From positions 1 through 28,486 of IMG/VR virus record IMGVR_UViG_3300044955_000087: DNA of 28,486 bases; one strand, 5' to 3'. The stretch comes from a virus. The stretch's first letter is position 1; each line of letters opens with the position of its first letter. Under the pieces are notes generated by a model. The model was not told the origin of the DNA. It saw only the letters and a program-made list of their open reading frames with translations, and searched no databases. The translations under genes and the position numbers were made by a program. Below are positions 5,188 through 27,224 of the stretch, piece after piece.

Positions 5188-5204
5188 TATAGGAGGATAT
5201 GACC

Positions 5205-5975
5205 GTGAGACACACACGCGATATTATGCACAACGGAAAAACTCCAAAACACATCCTAGAGCAGCATAAACTATGGGTGGAAGGTAAAGGTGGTGAACGT
5301 GCCAACCTGCGCGACGCCGACCTGCGCTACGCCGACCTGAGCGGTGCCAACCTGCGCAACGCCGACCTGATCGTTGCCGACCTGAGCGGTGCCTACCTGC
5401 GCGACGCCGACCTGCGCGGTGCCGACCTGCGCGGTGCCGACCTGCGCGGTGCCGACCTGCGCGGTGCCTACCTGCGCGGTGCCTACCTGCGCGGTGCCTA
5501 CCTGCGCGGTGCCGACCTGCGCGACGCCGACCTGCGCAACGCCAACCTGCGCGGTGCCGACCTGCGCGACGCCGACCTGCGCGACGCCGACCTGCGCGGT
5601 GCCGACCTGCGCGGTGCCGACCTGCGCGGTGCCTACCTGCGCGGTGCCGACCTGCGCGGTGCCTACCTGCCTAACTTCCAGCTTCCACCATCTGAGGGAA
5701 GTTTTATTGCGTGGAAAAAAACAACGAAGGGGGTTGCTAAAATTAAAATCACAGAAGACGCAAAACGCACCTCTAGCCTTATTGGCCGTAAATGCCGCGC
5801 ATCTAAGATTGAGGTTCTGGAAGGCTTTGAAGGCGCAACTGGTCCGAATTACGGCGGCTTGATTTACGAAACGGGCGCTGTTATTGAGGTGGAAGATTAC
5901 GATGATGATATTCGTGTAGAATGTACGCGTGGTATCCATTTCTTTATGACGAAAAAGGAGGCAGAAGAATGGTAG
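5205..5975 (+). CDS. Pentapeptide-repeat protein with C-terminal DUF5758-like domain
   Basis: 256 residues from GTG 5205, which places AGGAGG (5191-5196) 8 bases upstream; the ATG at 5199 is in frame but only 2 bases from that site. After a short N-terminus ([20 protein letters not shown]) come 25 uninterrupted A(D/N/Y)LxX repeats, predicted to fold into a right-handed quadrilateral beta-helix. Some such proteins mimic DNA (MfpA/Qnr), others are scaffolds. The C-terminal 95 residues ([23 protein letters not shown], a [20 protein letters not shown] segment, [14 protein letters not shown]) match the DUF5758 domain found after such repeats in phage proteins. Inference: a DNA-mimic or protein-binding early protein; its target is unknown. 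The repeats are nearly identical at DNA level, so copy number may vary between isolates. Confidence 0.88.
5301..5675 (+). repeat. 25 tandem 15-bp repeats encoding pentapeptide repeats
   Basis: Unit gccgacctgcgcggt with variants that change only the second codon (gac, tac, aac) and the last codon (ggt, gac, aac, tac, gtt). 25 units were counted without interruption. The core 'ctgcgc' is conserved in most units even at synonymous sites, which suggests recent expansion by slippage or recombination rather than long divergence. Confidence 0.95.
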
Positions 5976-6342: not shown

Positions 6343-7016
6343 AAGCTGAACTAATCGACTACATGGGGGACGACTTGGCCGTGGTCAATGCCGCGCGTGT
6401 GTCGTTTGATAAGGTGAGTGAGTGGGATGTTAACTATGATCAAGTGCCTTGTGGAGTGGAGCGCCTATCAGACGCAGACACCCGCCTAATCCAATACCTA
6501 GCCCGAAACAACCACTGGAGCCCGTTCAGCCACACTGCAATCAGTCTTCGTATGTCTGCGCCTATTCCTATTCGGACGCAGTGCTTCAAGCATAAAGCTG
6601 GGCTAACTGAGAATGAGGAGTCACGCCGTTACATCTCATCACGTCCAGATGTGTTTGTGCCTGATGAGTTCCGCGCTGCACCCGATGGAAGTGTTAAGCA
6701 GGGTAGTGGGGGTGTGCATCATAGAAGTGAGGAATGGAGGGCGGTGTATGAGGTCCATACGCGAGATATGGTTGACACGTATATGGCTATGATTGATGAT
6801 GGCGTGGCACCAGAACAAGCCCGATTCATCCTGCCACAAGGTTGCATTGTGAACTGGATCTGGACTGGCAATCTTGTGGCGTTCGCGCGGTACTACAATC
6901 AGCGTACATACGATAACGCACAGAAAGAAGGCCGCGACTTGGCACGGCAGGTTGCGGATATTATCAATCCGATGTATCCAGTGAGCTGGGCGGCATTGAC
7001 GGAGGACCACACATGA
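6339..7016 (+). CDS. thyX: FAD-dependent thymidylate synthase
   Basis: 225 residues, typical for ThyX, which methylates dUMP to dTMP using methylene-tetrahydrofolate and FAD/NADPH. Seen: NHWSPFSHTAISL (58-70) and the ThyX signature region at 79-99, RTQCFKHKAGLTENEESRRY. This is a phage-type variant of RHRxxSxNExSxR with Lys for two Arg residues and Thr for the usual Ser. The C-terminal FARYYNQRTYDNAQKEGRDL matches the second conserved block with the catalytic arginine region. It complements dUTPase, which makes dUMP, in the adjacent operon. Overlaps the neighbours by ATGA on both sides, with RBS AAGGAG at 6325-6330. The substitutions in the signature suggest altered FAD contacts but occur in other phage ThyX proteins. 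Confidence 0.92.
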   Translation: MKAELIDYMGDDLAVVNAARVSFDKVSEWDVNYDQVPCGVERLSDADTRLIQYLARNNHWSPFSHTAISLRMSAPIPIRTQCFKHKAGLTENEESRRYISSRPDVFVPDEFRAAPDGSVKQGSGGVHHRSEEWRAVYEVHTRDMVDTYMAMIDDGVAPEQARFILPQGCIVNWIWTGNLVAFARYYNQRTYDNAQKEGRDLARQVADIINPMYPVSWAALTEDHT

Positions 7017-8098
7017 AACTAACAATCACGCAACCAGACCTGTTAACAGTGCTAACCAAATCGGTTGGCGTGGTGGAGCGAAAGAACACCATCCCTGTGC
7101 TGTCTAACGTGAAGCTGCAAGCGGCCATGGCGTTGACTGTTACAGCGTCTGATATGGATATCGAGGTGATGGCAACGGGGCGGGCTGATGTTACCGCGCC
7201 AGGATCAACCACAGTGAACGCAGACACCCTAACCAGTATCGTCAAAAAGCTTGGCAAGTCAGCTATGGTGACGCTTGAACTGGCTGATAGCTGGCTAACG
7301 GTATCGGCGGGTCGGTCTAACTTCAAGCTGGCAACGCTTCCGGCTGAAGACTTCCCAGACATGGCAAGCAGCGAGTATGACCACAGCGGAACCATCCATG
7401 CTGACACACTGTCTCAAATGCTGAACAAGACCAAGTTCGCTATGTCCACTGAAGAGACACGCTTCATGCTCAACGGCGTGTACATGCACAACGACGATGC
7501 AGGAGATTTGATCACGGTTGCAACTGATGGTCACCGACTGGCAAAGATGACATCTGAGGTGGATCTAACCGTTGCGCCAGTGATCATCCCGCGCAAGACC
7601 GTCCTTGAGTTGGTCAAGCTTCTCGATGATGCGGATGACGTCACGGTTGAGACAAGCGAGACCAAACTTAGAGTGTCAGGCGATGGGTTCACTATCACGT
7701 CCAAGGTGGTTGACGGTACATTCCCACAGTATGAGCGCGTCATCCCAACTCGCAACGATAAGCCCATGACAGTATGTGCCAAGGAGTTCTCAGACGCATC
7801 AGCGCGCGTGTCCCTGGTGTCTGATGATCGCACTAGGGCAGTTAAGCTAAACGTGTCTGACGGTGCTTGTGTGCTGTCTGTGCGAGGATCTGGTGGCAAT
7901 GCTGTGGAAGAGGTGGCTGTTGAGTATAGCAGCGCTGATCTTGAGGCGGGATACAACAGCAAGTATCTGGCAGAGATGATGGCTCAGGCTGAAGGTGGCA
8001 ACGTGGAAATGACGTTTGGTTCACCTATGGACCCGGCTTTGGTCAAGTTGTCAGAGGTTGAAGGGTTCGTGGGTGTTACAATGCCTATGCGGATCTGA
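7013..8098 (+). CDS. dnaN: DNA polymerase III beta subunit (sliding clamp)
   Basis: 361 residues, close to the usual 366-375 of bacterial beta clamps, with the expected three-fold domain layout. Seen: VERKNTIPVLSNVKL near the N-terminus, a central VATDGHRLAKM, the domain-3 region YNSKYLAEMMAQAEGGNVEM, and a C-terminal MPMRI almost identical to the MPMRL end of bacterial clamps. The clamp dimer encircles DNA and tethers host Pol III. A phage-borne clamp could recruit host polymerase to phage DNA, replace a degraded host clamp, or avoid host regulation. The gene overlaps thyX by ATGA and is the last of this operon before a terminator. No clamp loader or phage DNA polymerase is visible in the window. 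Confidence 0.93.
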   Translation: MKLTITQPDLLTVLTKSVGVVERKNTIPVLSNVKLQAAMALTVTASDMDIEVMATGRADVTAPGSTTVNADTLTSIVKKLGKSAMVTLELADSWLTVSAGRSNFKLATLPAEDFPDMASSEYDHSGTIHADTLSQMLNKTKFAMSTEETRFMLNGVYMHNDDAGDLITVATDGHRLAKMTSEVDLTVAPVIIPRKTVLELVKLLDDADDVTVETSETKLRVSGDGFTITSKVVDGTFPQYERVIPTRNDKPMTVCAKEFSDASARVSLVSDDRTRAVKLNVSDGACVLSVRGSGGNAVEEVAVEYSSADLEAGYNSKYLAEMMAQAEGGNVEMTFGSPMDPALVKLSEVEGFVGVTMPMRI

Positions 8099-8138: not shown

Positions 8139-8167
8139 TTGACAGGGCGTTGTGGGTTGCGTAGGGT
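8139..8167 (+). promoter_or_regulatory. Sigma70-like promoter for the 8192 gene
   Basis: Consensus TTGACA at 8139-8144, a 17-base spacer, and TAGGGT at 8162-8167. The -10 is weak, but the same TTGACA-N17-TAGGGT combination recurs at 25193-25221, with a close relative at 20431-20459, which supports a shared phage promoter class. Confidence 0.55.
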
Positions 8168-8191
8168 GGGTATAGGAAAAGGAGATTAGCC

Positions 8192-8374
8192 ATGCAATTC
8201 GCAACATCGTCACACCAATCTGTCGCAGCCAAACACACGCCTAGCGGAACTGTTAAAAAATTCGATAATGTCGTTGATAGAAGTGACTATGTGACAGAAG
8301 AAATTAGATCGTCGTGGGAGTTCTTCTTTGTCGCGCCAAATGGTTATGAGTGGGGCCACGAAACATTTAAATAA
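8192..8374 (+). CDS. Small hypothetical protein
   Basis: 60 residues from ATG 8192 with AAAAGGAG (8177-8184) 7 bases upstream. A monocistronic unit with its own promoter and a strong terminator immediately after the stop. Sequence: QFATSSHQSVAAKHTPSGTV at the N-terminus, a basic-acidic middle, and an aromatic end (WEFFFVAPNGYEWGHETFK). No family or membrane segment recognised. The dedicated promoter suggests an early or constitutively expressed host-interaction peptide, but this is inference only. Confidence 0.6.
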   Translation: MQFATSSHQSVAAKHTPSGTVKKFDNVVDRSDYVTEEIRSSWEFFFVAPNGYEWGHETFK

Positions 8375-8379
8375 AAACA

Positions 8380-8403
8380 CCCCCGCCTAACAAGCGGGGG
8401 TTT
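8380..8403. terminator. Bidirectional terminator between converging operons
   Basis: Perfect 7-bp GC stem CCCCCGC (8380-8386) with GCGGGGG (8394-8400) and a 7-base loop, TTTCTT to the right and, on the minus strand, a T-rich tract (complement of 8371-8377). It lies between the rightward gene ending at 8374 and the leftward gene ending at 8409 and would stop both. Confidence 0.9.
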
Positions 8404-8408
8404 CTTAC

Positions 8409-8609
8409 TTACAGCAAGTCCCTATCAATGCGCGCCAAATCCATCAAGGCCAGTTCTCGCAGGCCATTATCTGTCAGATACGCAGTACCTAACTGCCAAC
8501 CAACGAGCCCTTCACTGATTAGCACGCAGTATTGCGAATACCATCGTTTGTGCCAAGCGTTAGGGGATTTTGCTAGGCATAGTAGGCGGCGGCGTCGGGC
8601 GTTATCCAC
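8409..8609 (-). CDS. Small basic hypothetical protein
   Basis: 66 residues from a GTG at 8609, chosen because it overlaps the upstream stop by 8 bases with GGTGAGG just before it; a longer frame to 8678 would overlap the neighbour by 77 bases with Arg-rich shadow-like sequence. The N-terminus is basic (DNARRRRLLCLAKSPNAWHK), followed by WYSQYCVLISEGLVGWQLG and TDNGLRELALMDLARIDRDL. The last part resembles a winged-helix wing and helix, so it may be a small DNA-binding protein. Last gene of the leftward early operon. Confidence 0.5.
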   Translation of the reverse strand: MDNARRRRLLCLAKSPNAWHKRWYSQYCVLISEGLVGWQLGTAYLTDNGLRELALMDLARIDRDLL

Positions 8610-24324: not shown

Positions 24325-24678
24325 TTAGCCTTGCCTCACAAAATAAATTACCACGCTAGGATCACCAGCAGCCAAAACCTTTCGGCGTGAAATGATCGTG
24401 TGATTTGAACTGTCTATTTTCATTATACCCCCAATATCGAAAACCTGCGCTTCACCTGTTACGATAACCTTCAGATCCGTAGACAGAACGGTTTCATTAA
24501 CCTCCCACTTGGAAACGCCAGTCACAACCGCCTTAATATCCGTTGATGACTGCGACACAATAGGCGGATCGAATTCCGTAGCACCCTCTACCGTTGTCAC
24601 CGTAACTGCCTGCTGTGTATCACCGTACTTACTGATTAGGCGCGTGGCTGTCTTAGCCATCTTTGAACGCAGACTCAT
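24325..24678 (-). CDS. Head closure/connector protein
   Basis: 117 residues. SLRSKMAKTATRLISKYGDT start, then a beta-barrel (TVEGATEFDPPIVSQSSTDI; ETVLSTDLKVIVTGEAQVFD; RRKVLAAGDPSVVIYFVRQG). The pattern ISKYG-x-T...V-x-G-x-S/Y-x-x-x...VLSTDLKVIV...VxxAGDPxVVY belongs to small head-closure (Hc1-type) proteins. The preceding gene is a head-tail adaptor, giving the classical adaptor-closure pair. ATGA coupling with the adaptor gene. Confidence 0.72.
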   Translation of the reverse strand: MSLRSKMAKTATRLISKYGDTQQAVTVTTVEGATEFDPPIVSQSSTDIKAVVTGVSKWEVNETVLSTDLKVIVTGEAQVFDIGGIMKIDSSNHTIISRRKVLAAGDPSVVIYFVRQG

Positions 24679-25151
24679 ACCACAAACGCCGCAACACTAG
24701 CACCCCAACCAGAGCGCAGGAAAGGACGCAACAGAGCCTCAATCGTGTCATAACGTGGCGTGTTATCAACCACGCTATCATCAGCCATGCTATCCGAGTT
24801 CATGGGCGCATGATAGCTAACTGACAGCACGTCAACCTTTTCAGACGCAACAGCGCCAGATCCATTGTTAGACACGCCACCAGCAGTCAGAGCCGATGGG
24901 TCAGCGTCATATAGTAGCGCGGCCTCATATGTAGCGTTATCTACGCGCTCAGGTACCGTGGTAACGCCTGTGATGCCAGTACGCGGCCAAGCATCGCCAT
25001 AGGTATCGACTGGCTGGCCGATGTAGCGGTCCCAGTACAGCCCATCCAAATAAGCGCTCGCAACGTAGCGCAGCACGTCAGGATCGCCCGTCACCGTGCG
25101 CCCTGTGGATGCCGCATAGGCCGCTAACCCTGTATTGTCGCCGTATGCCAT
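24675..25151 (-). CDS. Head-tail adaptor (DnaT-like ssDNA-binding family annotation)
   Basis: 158 residues. AYGDNTGLAAYAASTGRTVT start, LRYVASAYLDGLYWDRYIGQ and RVDNATYEAALLYDADPSAL, then KVDVLSVSYHAP and a C-terminal YDTIEALLRPFLRSG. This matches phage proteins usually annotated as 'DnaT-like ssDNA-binding', which are head-tail adaptors (Ad1-like) by position. It binds the portal ring and is followed by the closure protein. AGGAG lies 6 bases before the ATG on the minus strand; just upstream is the divergent rightward cassette. Confidence 0.75.
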   Translation of the reverse strand: MAYGDNTGLAAYAASTGRTVTGDPDVLRYVASAYLDGLYWDRYIGQPVDTYGDAWPRTGITGVTTVPERVDNATYEAALLYDADPSALTAGGVSNNGSGAVASEKVDVLSVSYHAPMNSDSMADDSVVDNTPRYDTIEALLRPFLRSGWGASVAAFVV

Positions 25152-25192: not shown

Positions 25193-25221
25193 TTGACAGG
25201 CGAATAAGGGGCGGTTAGGGT
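25193..25221 (+). promoter_or_regulatory. Rightward promoter of the surface-protein cassette
   Basis: Consensus TTGACA (25193-25198), a 17-base spacer and TAGGGT (25216-25221). The boxes are identical to those at 8139-8167. The site lies 42 bases from the start of the divergent adaptor gene. GGAGG at 25232-25236 precedes the ATG at 25245. Confidence 0.6.
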
Positions 25222-25244
25222 GTAGCTAAACGGAGGATACACCA

Positions 25245-25343
25245 ATGACCATCTTGAAAAACCTACTAACTGGACTACTAATGGGCACGATCATAGCCGC
25301 CGCGCTTTATGTCCCACTGATTATTGACCTAGGAGCTTACTAA
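25245..25343 (+). CDS. 32-residue membrane peptide, cassette gene 1
   Basis: ATG 25245 with CGGAGG 8 bases upstream. A Lys-containing N-terminus precedes one hydrophobic helix: LTGLLMGTIIAAALYVPLII followed by DLGAY. It may be a tiny inner-membrane protein or a signal-anchor peptide. The stop and the next ATG share one base (TAATG), so translation of the collagen-like protein is probably coupled to it. No homologue recognised. Confidence 0.6.
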   Translation: MTILKNLLTGLLMGTIIAAALYVPLIIDLGAY

Positions 25344-25858
25344 TGAAAACTCTTATCGCAACAACCGCCGTCATCCTCGTAATGTCTACAGCAGCAACAG
25401 CAAGCCCTAAGTCTTGCCCAGTTAAAACGGATACGAACGGTGTGCAGATCATCAAGAATGGTTGCGCTGCCTTTGTTGGTGCCACAGGCGCTCAGGGGCC
25501 ACAAGGAGAGCAAGGACCACAGGGTGAGCAGGGACTTACAGGGGCTGCTGGAACGAATGGAACAGATGGTATCAATGGCACTAACGGCGCTGATGGTAGT
25601 GACGGTGCTGATGGGGCTGATGGGGCTGATGGGGCTGATGCTGTAGCACCACTAGGCTCACTATCATTTGCGGCAGCTAGTGCGTCATTCGATGGTGACG
25701 GTATTGGCTTCGGTCTGTCTGACTCTAACTATGGTGACCTTGAAGGCTCTGTAGTGTTAGGGTTCGACCTTGATGGTGGCTGGCGTGTAGTTGCTGGCAT
25801 TACTACAAACTTCAAGGGTAAGACTGCTGGTTCAATCGGTGTAGGAGTTAGCTTCTAA
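25343..25858 (+). CDS. Secreted collagen-like protein with YadA-type C-terminal anchor
   Basis: 171 residues. 1-20: Sec signal peptide (KTLIATTAVILVMSTAATA). 21-45: short head with two cysteines (C25, C41). 46-99: 18 perfect Gly-X-Y triplets (GATGAQGPQGEQGPQGEQ, ending in GAD repeats), a collagen-like trimeric stalk. 100-171: 72 residues of alternating hydrophobic strands (GSLSFAAASASFDGDGIGFG; GSVVLGFDLDGGWRVVAGIT; AGSIGVGVSF) ending in Phe. The length, strand count, Gly pattern and terminal aromatic match the YadA/trimeric autotransporter anchor. Inference: a miniature trimeric outer-membrane surface protein made by the infected cell. Rightward gene inside the leftward late operon, with its own promoter. 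Confidence 0.78.
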   Translation: MKTLIATTAVILVMSTAATASPKSCPVKTDTNGVQIIKNGCAAFVGATGAQGPQGEQGPQGEQGLTGAAGTNGTDGINGTNGADGSDGADGADGADGADAVAPLGSLSFAAASASFDGDGIGFGLSDSNYGDLEGSVVLGFDLDGGWRVVAGITTNFKGKTAGSIGVGVSF

Positions 25859-25998
25859 TGACTGATACCGTACAAAACGCACTTGCTGACCTCGCAGACC
25901 GTGGGGACTACTGGTTCGAATTGGCTATGGAGGATGCCTTCCTAGACATGCTGGAGGAAGAACAGGAACAAGAGGGAACTAAAGATTACCACCTTTAG
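25858..25998 (+). CDS. Small acidic protein, cassette gene 3
   Basis: 46 residues. The ATG shares one base with the stop of the collagen-like gene (TAATG). TDTVQNALADLADRGDYWFE followed by LAMEDAFLDMLEEEQEQEG and a KDYHL end. Extremely acidic and helical, with no signal peptide, so cytoplasmic. It could be a chaperone or adaptor for its secreted neighbour or an independent host-directed peptide; neither is shown by the sequence. Confidence 0.55.
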   Translation: MTDTVQNALADLADRGDYWFELAMEDAFLDMLEEEQEQEGTKDYHL

Positions 25999-26030
25999 TA
26001 ATTGATAGGAGGTGTTCCCGTATCTGCCTT

Positions 26031-26050
26031 GGGCCGCTTAATAGCGGCCC
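26031..26050. terminator. Hairpin at the end of the rightward cassette
   Basis: Perfect 7-bp stem GGGCCGC (26031-26037) with GCGGCCC (26044-26050) and a 6-base loop. The following bases, TTGTGCTTT, are only partly T-rich, so as a terminator it is moderate. It lies in the gap between the converging cassette and late-operon genes. Confidence 0.6.
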
Positions 26051-26057
26051 TTGTGCT

Positions 26058-27224
26058 TTATCGCTCAGATACCCCGACAAGCCCACCTAACTCGGCTGTC
26101 ACGTCCCTATTGGCTGATGTGTTCTCAATCCAGATTTCGATCCGGTCGTTTTCTTCCAATTGCCCAAACGCGAATATCTCGACACCTTCAGCGCGCCCAG
26201 CAGCGTTAAGGGTTCGCACCCCAGATGTTGCAAGGTCAATATACCCAGCCGCACTATCATCCCATTGGCGCACGATCAACGAAACCTGATCACCGTTACT
26301 GCCAGAAACCGTCAGCAATGCCAGTACTTGAACCTCGACATCTTGCGTCGATATGTACACGAACTCGTTATCGTTAGCGCCCGTGAACCATTGGAGGTCG
26401 CTGTAGGTCGTTACCCCGGCAAGCTTGTTGGGGTTAGTGCCTCCACTCAGGACTGTTACCGCTGGCGTTGTTACCGACCATTGCCCGCCTACATACGTGT
26501 TACGCACGCCCTGACAGTTTCGGAACCGCGCCTTAACGCTTTCAGACGGCATGTTAGGGAACGCATCATACCCACCCGGCACACGTACGCCCTCCATAGA
26601 GAACGCAGCGTCGTTGGTGATATCAGCAGCGGCAATGTCAGTAAACACAGCACCGCCCAGTTGAAGCGCGTTGAAGTCTGAGCGGAATGACCCGTTGATA
26701 ACAAGCGCCGTGCCTTCTTTAAATACAGGACCAGTCATTGCACCAATGATAATAGCCGTGGTCGAGAAGAACCCGCCTGCCCATGTTCCAGACAGTGTTA
26801 GACCCGCAGTGCAGAAGATGAGCGCCAAATTTGTCCACAGCCCTTGCCTGTACGCCGTTAGCTCGCCCAAAGACGCACAGTTAGTGAAGTTTGTATCTAT
26901 GCACTCGACAGCGCCCAGATTGCCCGCGTTATTGAGGTTGAATACGGAAGGCGATGTAAACGTAAGACCCCTTACGAACAAGTCGCCGCTGTAAGGCTCG
27001 GTCCCTGTTACGAAGATCGACCCCGTTGACGTCAAGCTAGAGATCGTGACGCCGTGACCTTCTATCTGCAAGCCACCTTGGGGGACTGTAATGCTACCCG
27101 CCCCTAGATCAATAGCGCCATCGATCTTGTACAGAGTGTCGCTGCGCAGGTCGCCAGTTAGCTCGGATGCCGACTTTACGATGCGTTCATATACTGCAAC
27201 ATTGCCACTTCCGTAGCTGAACAT
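26058..27224 (-). CDS. Virion fibre/spike-like protein with beta-helix
   Basis: 388 residues. N-terminal YERIVKSASELTGDLRSDTL, then LYKIDGAIDLGAGSITVPQG, GLQIEGHGVTISSLTSTGSI and further short strand-turn rungs up to about residue 200, typical of a right-handed parallel beta-helix (pectate-lyase-like spike fold). The C-terminal 140 residues look like a jelly-roll (a VQVLALLTVSGSNGDQVSL segment; EENDRIEIWIENTSANRDVT). It could be a head fibre or decoration given its location right after the capsid and decoration genes, or a tail spike. No catalytic residues can be assigned by eye. Start overlaps the previous stop by one base. Confidence 0.65.
   Translation of the reverse strand: MFSYGSGNVAVYERIVKSASELTGDLRSDTLYKIDGAIDLGAGSITVPQGGLQIEGHGVTISSLTSTGSIFVTGTEPYSGDLFVRGLTFTSPSVFNLNNAGNLGAVECIDTNFTNCASLGELTAYRQGLWTNLALIFCTAGLTLSGTWAGGFFSTTAIIIGAMTGPVFKEGTALVINGSFRSDFNALQLGGAVFTDIAAADITNDAAFSMEGVRVPGGYDAFPNMPSESVKARFRNCQGVRNTYVGGQWSVTTPAVTVLSGGTNPNKLAGVTTYSDLQWFTGANDNEFVYISTQDVEVQVLALLTVSGSNGDQVSLIVRQWDDSAAGYIDLATSGVRTLNAAGRAEGVEIFAFGQLEENDRIEIWIENTSANRDVTAELGGLVGVSER

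Follow-up and report, generated by a model that had tools for sequence, protein, structure and literature searches.

Is the collagen-like protein encoded amid the virion genes of an uncultivated marine phage a part of the virion, or is it displayed on the infected cell's surface? The sequence examined (the window) comprised all 28,486 bases of an IMG/VR virus record, which is possibly a fragment. The cassette in question lies at 25193-26050 on the + strand, and the genes on both sides are on the - strand, with the head-tail adaptor gene Ad1 at 24675-25151 and the gene of a phrog_16509 protein at 26058-27224. Besides Ad1, these - strand neighbours include the virion genes for Hc1, the tape measure, the major tail protein, head morphogenesis and capsid E. 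The parts listed in a preliminary description of this DNA were all present, and their direction opposite to the surrounding virion genes was confirmed. The cassette opens with a promoter-like element on the + strand (TTGACA-N17-TAGGGT, 25193-25221), which has an exact -35 hexamer. Three ORFs follow on the same strand, encoding a 32-aa hydrophobic peptide (25245-25343, with GGAGG at 25232-25236), a protein of 171 aa (25343-25858, with AGGAG at 25331-25335; about 151 aa when mature) and a 46-aa acidic protein containing 14 acidic and 2 basic residues (25858-25998). TAATG stop/start overlaps chain all three ORFs, which are therefore probably translated jointly. A strand-neutral, terminator-like hairpin (26031-26050; -21 kcal/mol, z = -5.1 on the + strand) closes the cassette, and because it lies between convergent genes, it could terminate transcription in both directions.

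The element at 25193 was not reported by a generic sigma-70 scan, because its -10 hexamer is weak. The pattern nevertheless occurs exactly twice in the record, at 25193 and at 8139 (8139-8167), with identical -35, spacing and -10, and it was absent from all of 100 shuffles. This recurrence supports a genuine phage promoter type. The second copy begins another promoter-gene-terminator unit (8139-8410), with a 60-aa ORF (about 8191-8373) and a GC-rich hairpin followed by a T-run, which suggests a phage promoter type serving small accessory genes. Just upstream of the anchor gene in the relatives described below, the element was not found. The G+C content of the cassette (50.9%) was close to that of the whole record (51.5%) and thus gave no sign of recent import. 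The cassette had also been called a moron; by its sequence, the promoter-genes-terminator layout between phage genes suits that term, but neither lysogeny nor a cassette-free close relative could be demonstrated. No relative of the 46-aa protein was found in the fetched loci of the relatives, and the 32-aa peptide had none in annotated phages and no clear one in the fetched loci. This peptide (25245-25343) weakly resembles the signal peptide of one relative, L003 (34% over 29 aa), and may be a leftover or a copy of a signal sequence, although such a likeness carries little weight owing to hydrophobic bias.

The 171-aa protein begins with a predicted Sec-type signal peptide at residues 1-20 (25343-25402, + strand), which starts with MKT and ends with A-T-A before a serine (MKTLIATTAVILVMSTAATA followed by S). 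It was recognised by inspection and hydropathy, and its hydrophobic core has a Kyte-Doolittle value of 2.7. By the same approach, a Sec-type signal peptide was seen in every complete relative. The tip that follows (residues 21-45, 25403-25477) contains Cys25 and Cys41. It was 88% identical in L008-L010 and about 55-60% identical in L001 and L011, and it was absent in L003 and L005. The Cys pair directly before the collagen (25415-25467) was also present in L001, L008, L011, L012 and phiEco32 and absent in L003 and L005; its placement looks as if the pair may fix the triple-helix register. Then comes a collagen-like stalk at residues 46-99 (25478-25639, + strand; Pfam Collagen, E 9e-11), the only part of the protein recognised by Pfam. 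As the preliminary description had counted, it consists of 18 uninterrupted Gly-X-Y triplets, compared with a longest run of 9 in 20,000 shuffles of the protein. Judged by its sequence type, this segment between passenger and anchor would be a trimer-forming stalk. Only a few residues separate the collagen from the barrel domain, with no coiled-coil neck of the kind found in phiEco32.

The C-terminal domain (residues 101-171, 25643-25855, + strand), which ends in Phe, is predicted to be a membrane anchor of the trimeric-autotransporter type. An AlphaFold2 monomer model of this 71-residue domain, built with six natural sequences, gave a helix and four strands (pLDDT 82, pTM 0.68), with the helix at 106-113 and the strands at 120-127, 133-143, 147-156 and 161-169. 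In a Foldseek search of the PDB, the Hia and AtaA anchors took ranks 1-4 with a probability of 1.00, and YadA was at rank 7. In VIA-align, the top five rows of the PDB comparison were the solved anchors of Hia (three entries), AtaA and YadA, with Z of 6.6-7.5, a level at which values below 8 can reflect a common arrangement and unrelated rows reached up to 5.8. These alignments spanned 66-68 of the 71 residues, and each ran to the C-terminal end of its Hia, AtaA or YadA chain. BFVD ranks 1-15 all had a probability of 1.00, and where a name was informative, it mostly denoted a YadA-like anchor protein or adhesin of a phage, with phiEco32 and FSL SP-076 among the sources. The predicted fold therefore has the form of the type Vc anchor, about 70 aa with a helix and four beta-strands. 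In addition, the protein ends in S-I-G-V-G-V-S-F, the terminal Phe being kept in all intact relatives, and this I-x-V-x-V-x-F pattern fits an outer-membrane beta-signal for BAM.

Sequence profiles gave a weaker signal. The domain of the 171-aa protein itself did not match PF03895 (YadA_anchor), and the anchor alone had no significant family in Pfam, NCBIfam or PHROGs; searching the PDB sequences with the anchor profile also gave nothing significant. Sub-threshold PF03895 matches were located at the anchor domain in the records of seven of nine relatives (E 4e-4 to 0.014 per record), with 11.7-14.7 bits against the curated cut-off of 22.7 bits, and three of these seven records (L008-L010) are near identical copies. 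Among the aligned sequences, PF03895 also matched more members (3/6) than any other family did. In hhalign against 10 YadA anchors, the score was 21.5, and the best of 200 column shuffles reached 19.7, a narrow margin. Hence the 171-aa protein falls outside PF03895 as Pfam defines it, and the type Vc assignment rests on the fold and the layout. These weak sequence scores, as well as the VIA-align Z below 8, would also be expected if the protein were an unrelated small periplasmic beta-sheet protein with a coincidental match to the anchors. We regard such a coincidence as very improbable, since solved anchors came first in two aligners, the strand order, length and C-terminal end agree with those of the anchors, and the PF03895 matches of several relatives coincide in position. 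The lines of evidence for a trimeric-autotransporter anchor are moderate singly, and together they make a strong case for the predicted fold. Divergent anchors of this kind escape profile libraries and yet are found by fold comparison.

Relatives of the anchor were obtained by searching IMG/VR with the C-terminal domain, which yielded L001 and L006 (one contig), L002, L003 and L007 (one contig), L005, L008, L009 and L010 (with near identical proteins), L011 and L012. They represent several distinct uncultivated phages, and their anchor domains were 69-82% identical to that of the 171-aa protein. In pairwise comparisons of this domain with the relatives, dN was 0.11-0.18 and dS was 0.8-1.4 (dN/dS about 0.1-0.2); dN well below dS indicates purifying selection on the C-terminal domain. 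The stalks varied, with 13, 18, 24, 31 or 77 Gly-X-Y triplets, and L005 had none. In this 143-aa protein, about 50 residues of coiled-coil-like sequence replace the collagen, and a model of the mature protein, of low confidence (pLDDT 58), showed helices in the stalk and a recurrence of the anchor elements. Collagen and coiled coil are both trimer-forming, and their occurrence on the same anchor lends independent support to a putative trimer. Between L001 (5016-5228) and L003 (5019-5231), the anchor DNA was 93% identical, whereas the signal peptides, stalks and genome surroundings differed. The anchor thus appears to move as a module, with a recent exchange. In L011 (5698-6226), a stop together with a frame change interrupts the anchor gene close to its end, which would reflect either a decayed gene or sequence errors.

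Searches beyond these contigs returned no close source. At the sensitivity used, a tblastn search of annotated phages found no relative of the anchor of the 171-aa protein, plasmids queried with the L012 protein gave none, and no anchor relative was found in GTDB contigs. Among 395 Rhodobacteraceae genomes, gathered via a 16S signature pattern, the anchor profile had three weak matches, in frames unlike autotransporter anchors, and no cellular source was found. At BFVD rank 16, the collagen protein of S-ESS1 has a signal peptide, a Cys pair and collagen but carries a C-terminal extension and no sequence match; it is a possible cousin.

The location of the genes bears on whether the protein could be a virion component, namely a short fibre of collagen type whose trimeric C-terminal foldon merely resembles a membrane anchor. 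In L003, L005, L009, L011 and L012, the anchor gene lies among early, replication or nucleotide genes (ThyX, primase-helicase and PolA), which speaks against a fibre. In L001 and L002, as for the 171-aa gene, it is oriented opposite to packaging or head genes, and the relatives lie outside tail operons. Collagen-like tail fibres are marked by an N-terminal attachment domain and a gene in the tail module; the 171-aa protein has neither, and no N-terminal virion-attachment domain was recognisable in it. Every complete relative, on the contrary, has a signal peptide. The collagen repeats do match PHROG tail-fibre families, and "tail protein" is the label that annotators gave to a phage relative. 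The PHROG matches of the full protein were dismissed as evidence, however, because the best of them are centred on the collagen stretch. Also in favour of a fibre is a cyanophage YadA-domain protein found in virions (PMC9146016), such proteins also being described as structural (PMC6224464). When a T4-like phage lost a 6.5-kb region including a YadA-anchor ORF, its adsorption to exponential-phase hosts seemed lower, and the escape mutants were viable, with other ORFs and 10 tRNA genes also gone (PMC5449768); the lowered adsorption could hint at a virion role for that ORF. Taking both sides together, we consider a virion fibre improbable for the 171-aa protein. The Sec signal and the predicted outer-membrane barrel point to the envelope of the infected cell rather than the virion, and the gene positions agree. 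On the basis of the predicted fold, the signal peptide, the C-terminal beta-signal and the positions of the relatives, we therefore favour, as the preliminary description did, a miniature trimeric autotransporter over a tail fibre. That the protein is a miniature type Vc protein made by the phage and located in the infected cell's outer membrane seems to us highly probable, a judgement that covers its identity and location and not its benefit to the phage.

Proteins with this architecture were found in other phages. The phiEco32 protein phi32_119, called an "agglutinating adhesin", Salmonella phage TR2 gp24 and Salmonella phage Munch_428 all resemble the 171-aa protein in combining a signal peptide, collagen (22 triplets in phi32_119 and 44 in gp24) and a YadA anchor. 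Their genes lie outside annotated tail genes, like those of the anchor relatives, with TR2 gp24 adjoining dUTPase, and the phiEco32 protein shares the Cys pair before the collagen. They differ in their size of 226-441 aa and in a recognisable YadA-type anchor ending in Trp, and phi32_119 and the Munch protein have a coiled-coil neck between collagen and barrel, unlike the 171-aa protein. In the records of TR2 (L158, 1706-2683) and phiEco32 (L022, 1886-2683), these genes are labelled "tail protein" despite the signal peptide, collagen and YadA anchor, and the annotated start of the phiEco32 gene is probably 39 codons too far upstream. The bacterial type Vc proteins Hia, AtaA and YadA share the anchor fold, with a helix and four strands per chain; they are products of cellular genes and, unlike the 171-aa protein, have large coiled-coil stalks and heads. 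A chromosomal 222-aa ORF of Rhodobacteraceae (L155, 9129-9797) also combines a signal peptide and collagen with a YadA anchor, which scored above the Pfam cut-off, but it lies among ordinary bacterial genes and has a different head and a standard YadA-type anchor. Collagen in such a protein is therefore less exceptional than first described, given these phages and this chromosome. A YadA-anchor query matched 115 annotated phage records, and adhesin, hypothetical and tail protein were the usual labels. Such queries were generic consensus strings rather than database entries, and the architecture of the hits described above was taken from the records themselves. The matches also included P-EibA and P-EibD, trimeric autotransporters of the Eib group that are carried by prophages. 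Eib proteins are coiled-coil immunoglobulin binders of temperate phages, with a surface function in the lysogen. The 171-aa protein is also not the smallest of its kind, and the proposal that it is among the smallest needs qualification, since BFVD lists YadA-anchor proteins from phages with only 90 and 122 aa, and the L005 relative has 143 aa. In 2013, YadA homologues were noted in the Salmonella phages FSL SP-058 and SP-076; in the available part of that report, their function is left open, their genes adjoin dUTPase and are not close to tail-morphogenesis genes, and no collagen stalk is mentioned, while their anchor belongs to a different sequence family (PMC3728262). The VtaA proteins of Haemophilus (Glaesserella) parasuis are trimeric autotransporters with collagen-like repeats, like the 171-aa protein, but VtaA2 is bacterial, has 1225 aa and carries YadA-like head repeats (PMC6755704). 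These comparisons give good support for regarding the 171-aa protein as a very short and divergent new variant of the phage-encoded YadA-type surface proteins already known.

By analogy with the type Vc pathway, the phage promoter of the cassette would drive synthesis of the 171-aa protein in the infected cell, and Sec would export three chains. With the BAM complex, their three C-terminal domains of a helix and four strands would be assembled into a single trimeric barrel of 12 strands, embedded in the outer membrane. The Gly-X-Y chains would then thread outward through the pore and zipper into a triple helix. A collagen triple helix rises 0.86 nm per triplet, so that 18 triplets would give a stalk of about 15 nm. 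It would hold the small N-terminal tip outward, where a Cys link, possibly a disulphide, may fix the register. Such a bristle would alter the surface of the infected cell.

As to the benefit, the likeliest candidate, which we hold tentatively, is the hindering of adsorption or DNA entry by further phages, either by shielding the cell or by binding of the tip to a receptor. Superinfection exclusion is known to be served by small phage outer-membrane proteins such as Cor and Llp. The early-region position of the gene in relatives fits this role, as does a stalk of variable length beside a conserved anchor and, in most relatives, a conserved tip. Against it, the literature search found no link between trimeric autotransporters and exclusion. 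The second candidate, which appears rather doubtful, is adhesion of infected cells to one another or to particles, which would clump or fix the cells so that progeny meet new hosts. Autoagglutination is a classical activity of trimeric autotransporters. For the collagen-containing VtaA2, a role in promoting attachment is described, with its binding to collagen due in part to the collagen segments (PMC6755704). The 171-aa protein, however, has no recognisable adhesive head domain and only a 25-residue tip. For either role, the literature search turned up no publication that tested the function of a phage trimeric autotransporter. A wider proposal, which we consider speculative and somewhat unlikely as a whole, is that unrelated lytic marine phages share a swappable, mobile anchor that shows interchangeable trimeric stalks (collagen or coiled coil) on the infected cell, as a dedicated, early-made device for superinfection exclusion or aggregation. 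If that proposal is true, these proteins would be a functionally new class among the outer-membrane proteins of phages, in which a collagen triple helix adjoins the barrel directly, without a coiled-coil neck. The family offers a minimal model, its tip, stalk and barrel together making up about 150 residues in the mature protein, and would allow a direct approach to the question of what phages gain by coating the infected cell with trimeric bristles. Blocked adsorption would add a new route to superinfection exclusion, and a short, self-anchoring scaffold for collagen display may have practical use.

The hosts of these phages can be suggested only from gene identities. In the annotated phage collection, this phage had no near relative, and the relatives found carry the anchor gene at other sites. 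The window encodes a ribonucleotide reductase that shares 74% identity with its counterpart in a Lentibacter phage, and for the primase of L009 the identity to a Roseobacter phage primase was 67%, whereas the terminase of L001 points elsewhere (68% to a Pseudomonas phage). Two further genes of the window were noted. A pentapeptide-repeat gene at 5199-5975 contains a 15-base repeat array, and its antisense strand is open for 252 codons, probably as a by-product of the repeat. At 7013-8098, the phage encodes a full-length bacterial-type sliding clamp with all three DNA polymerase III beta domains.
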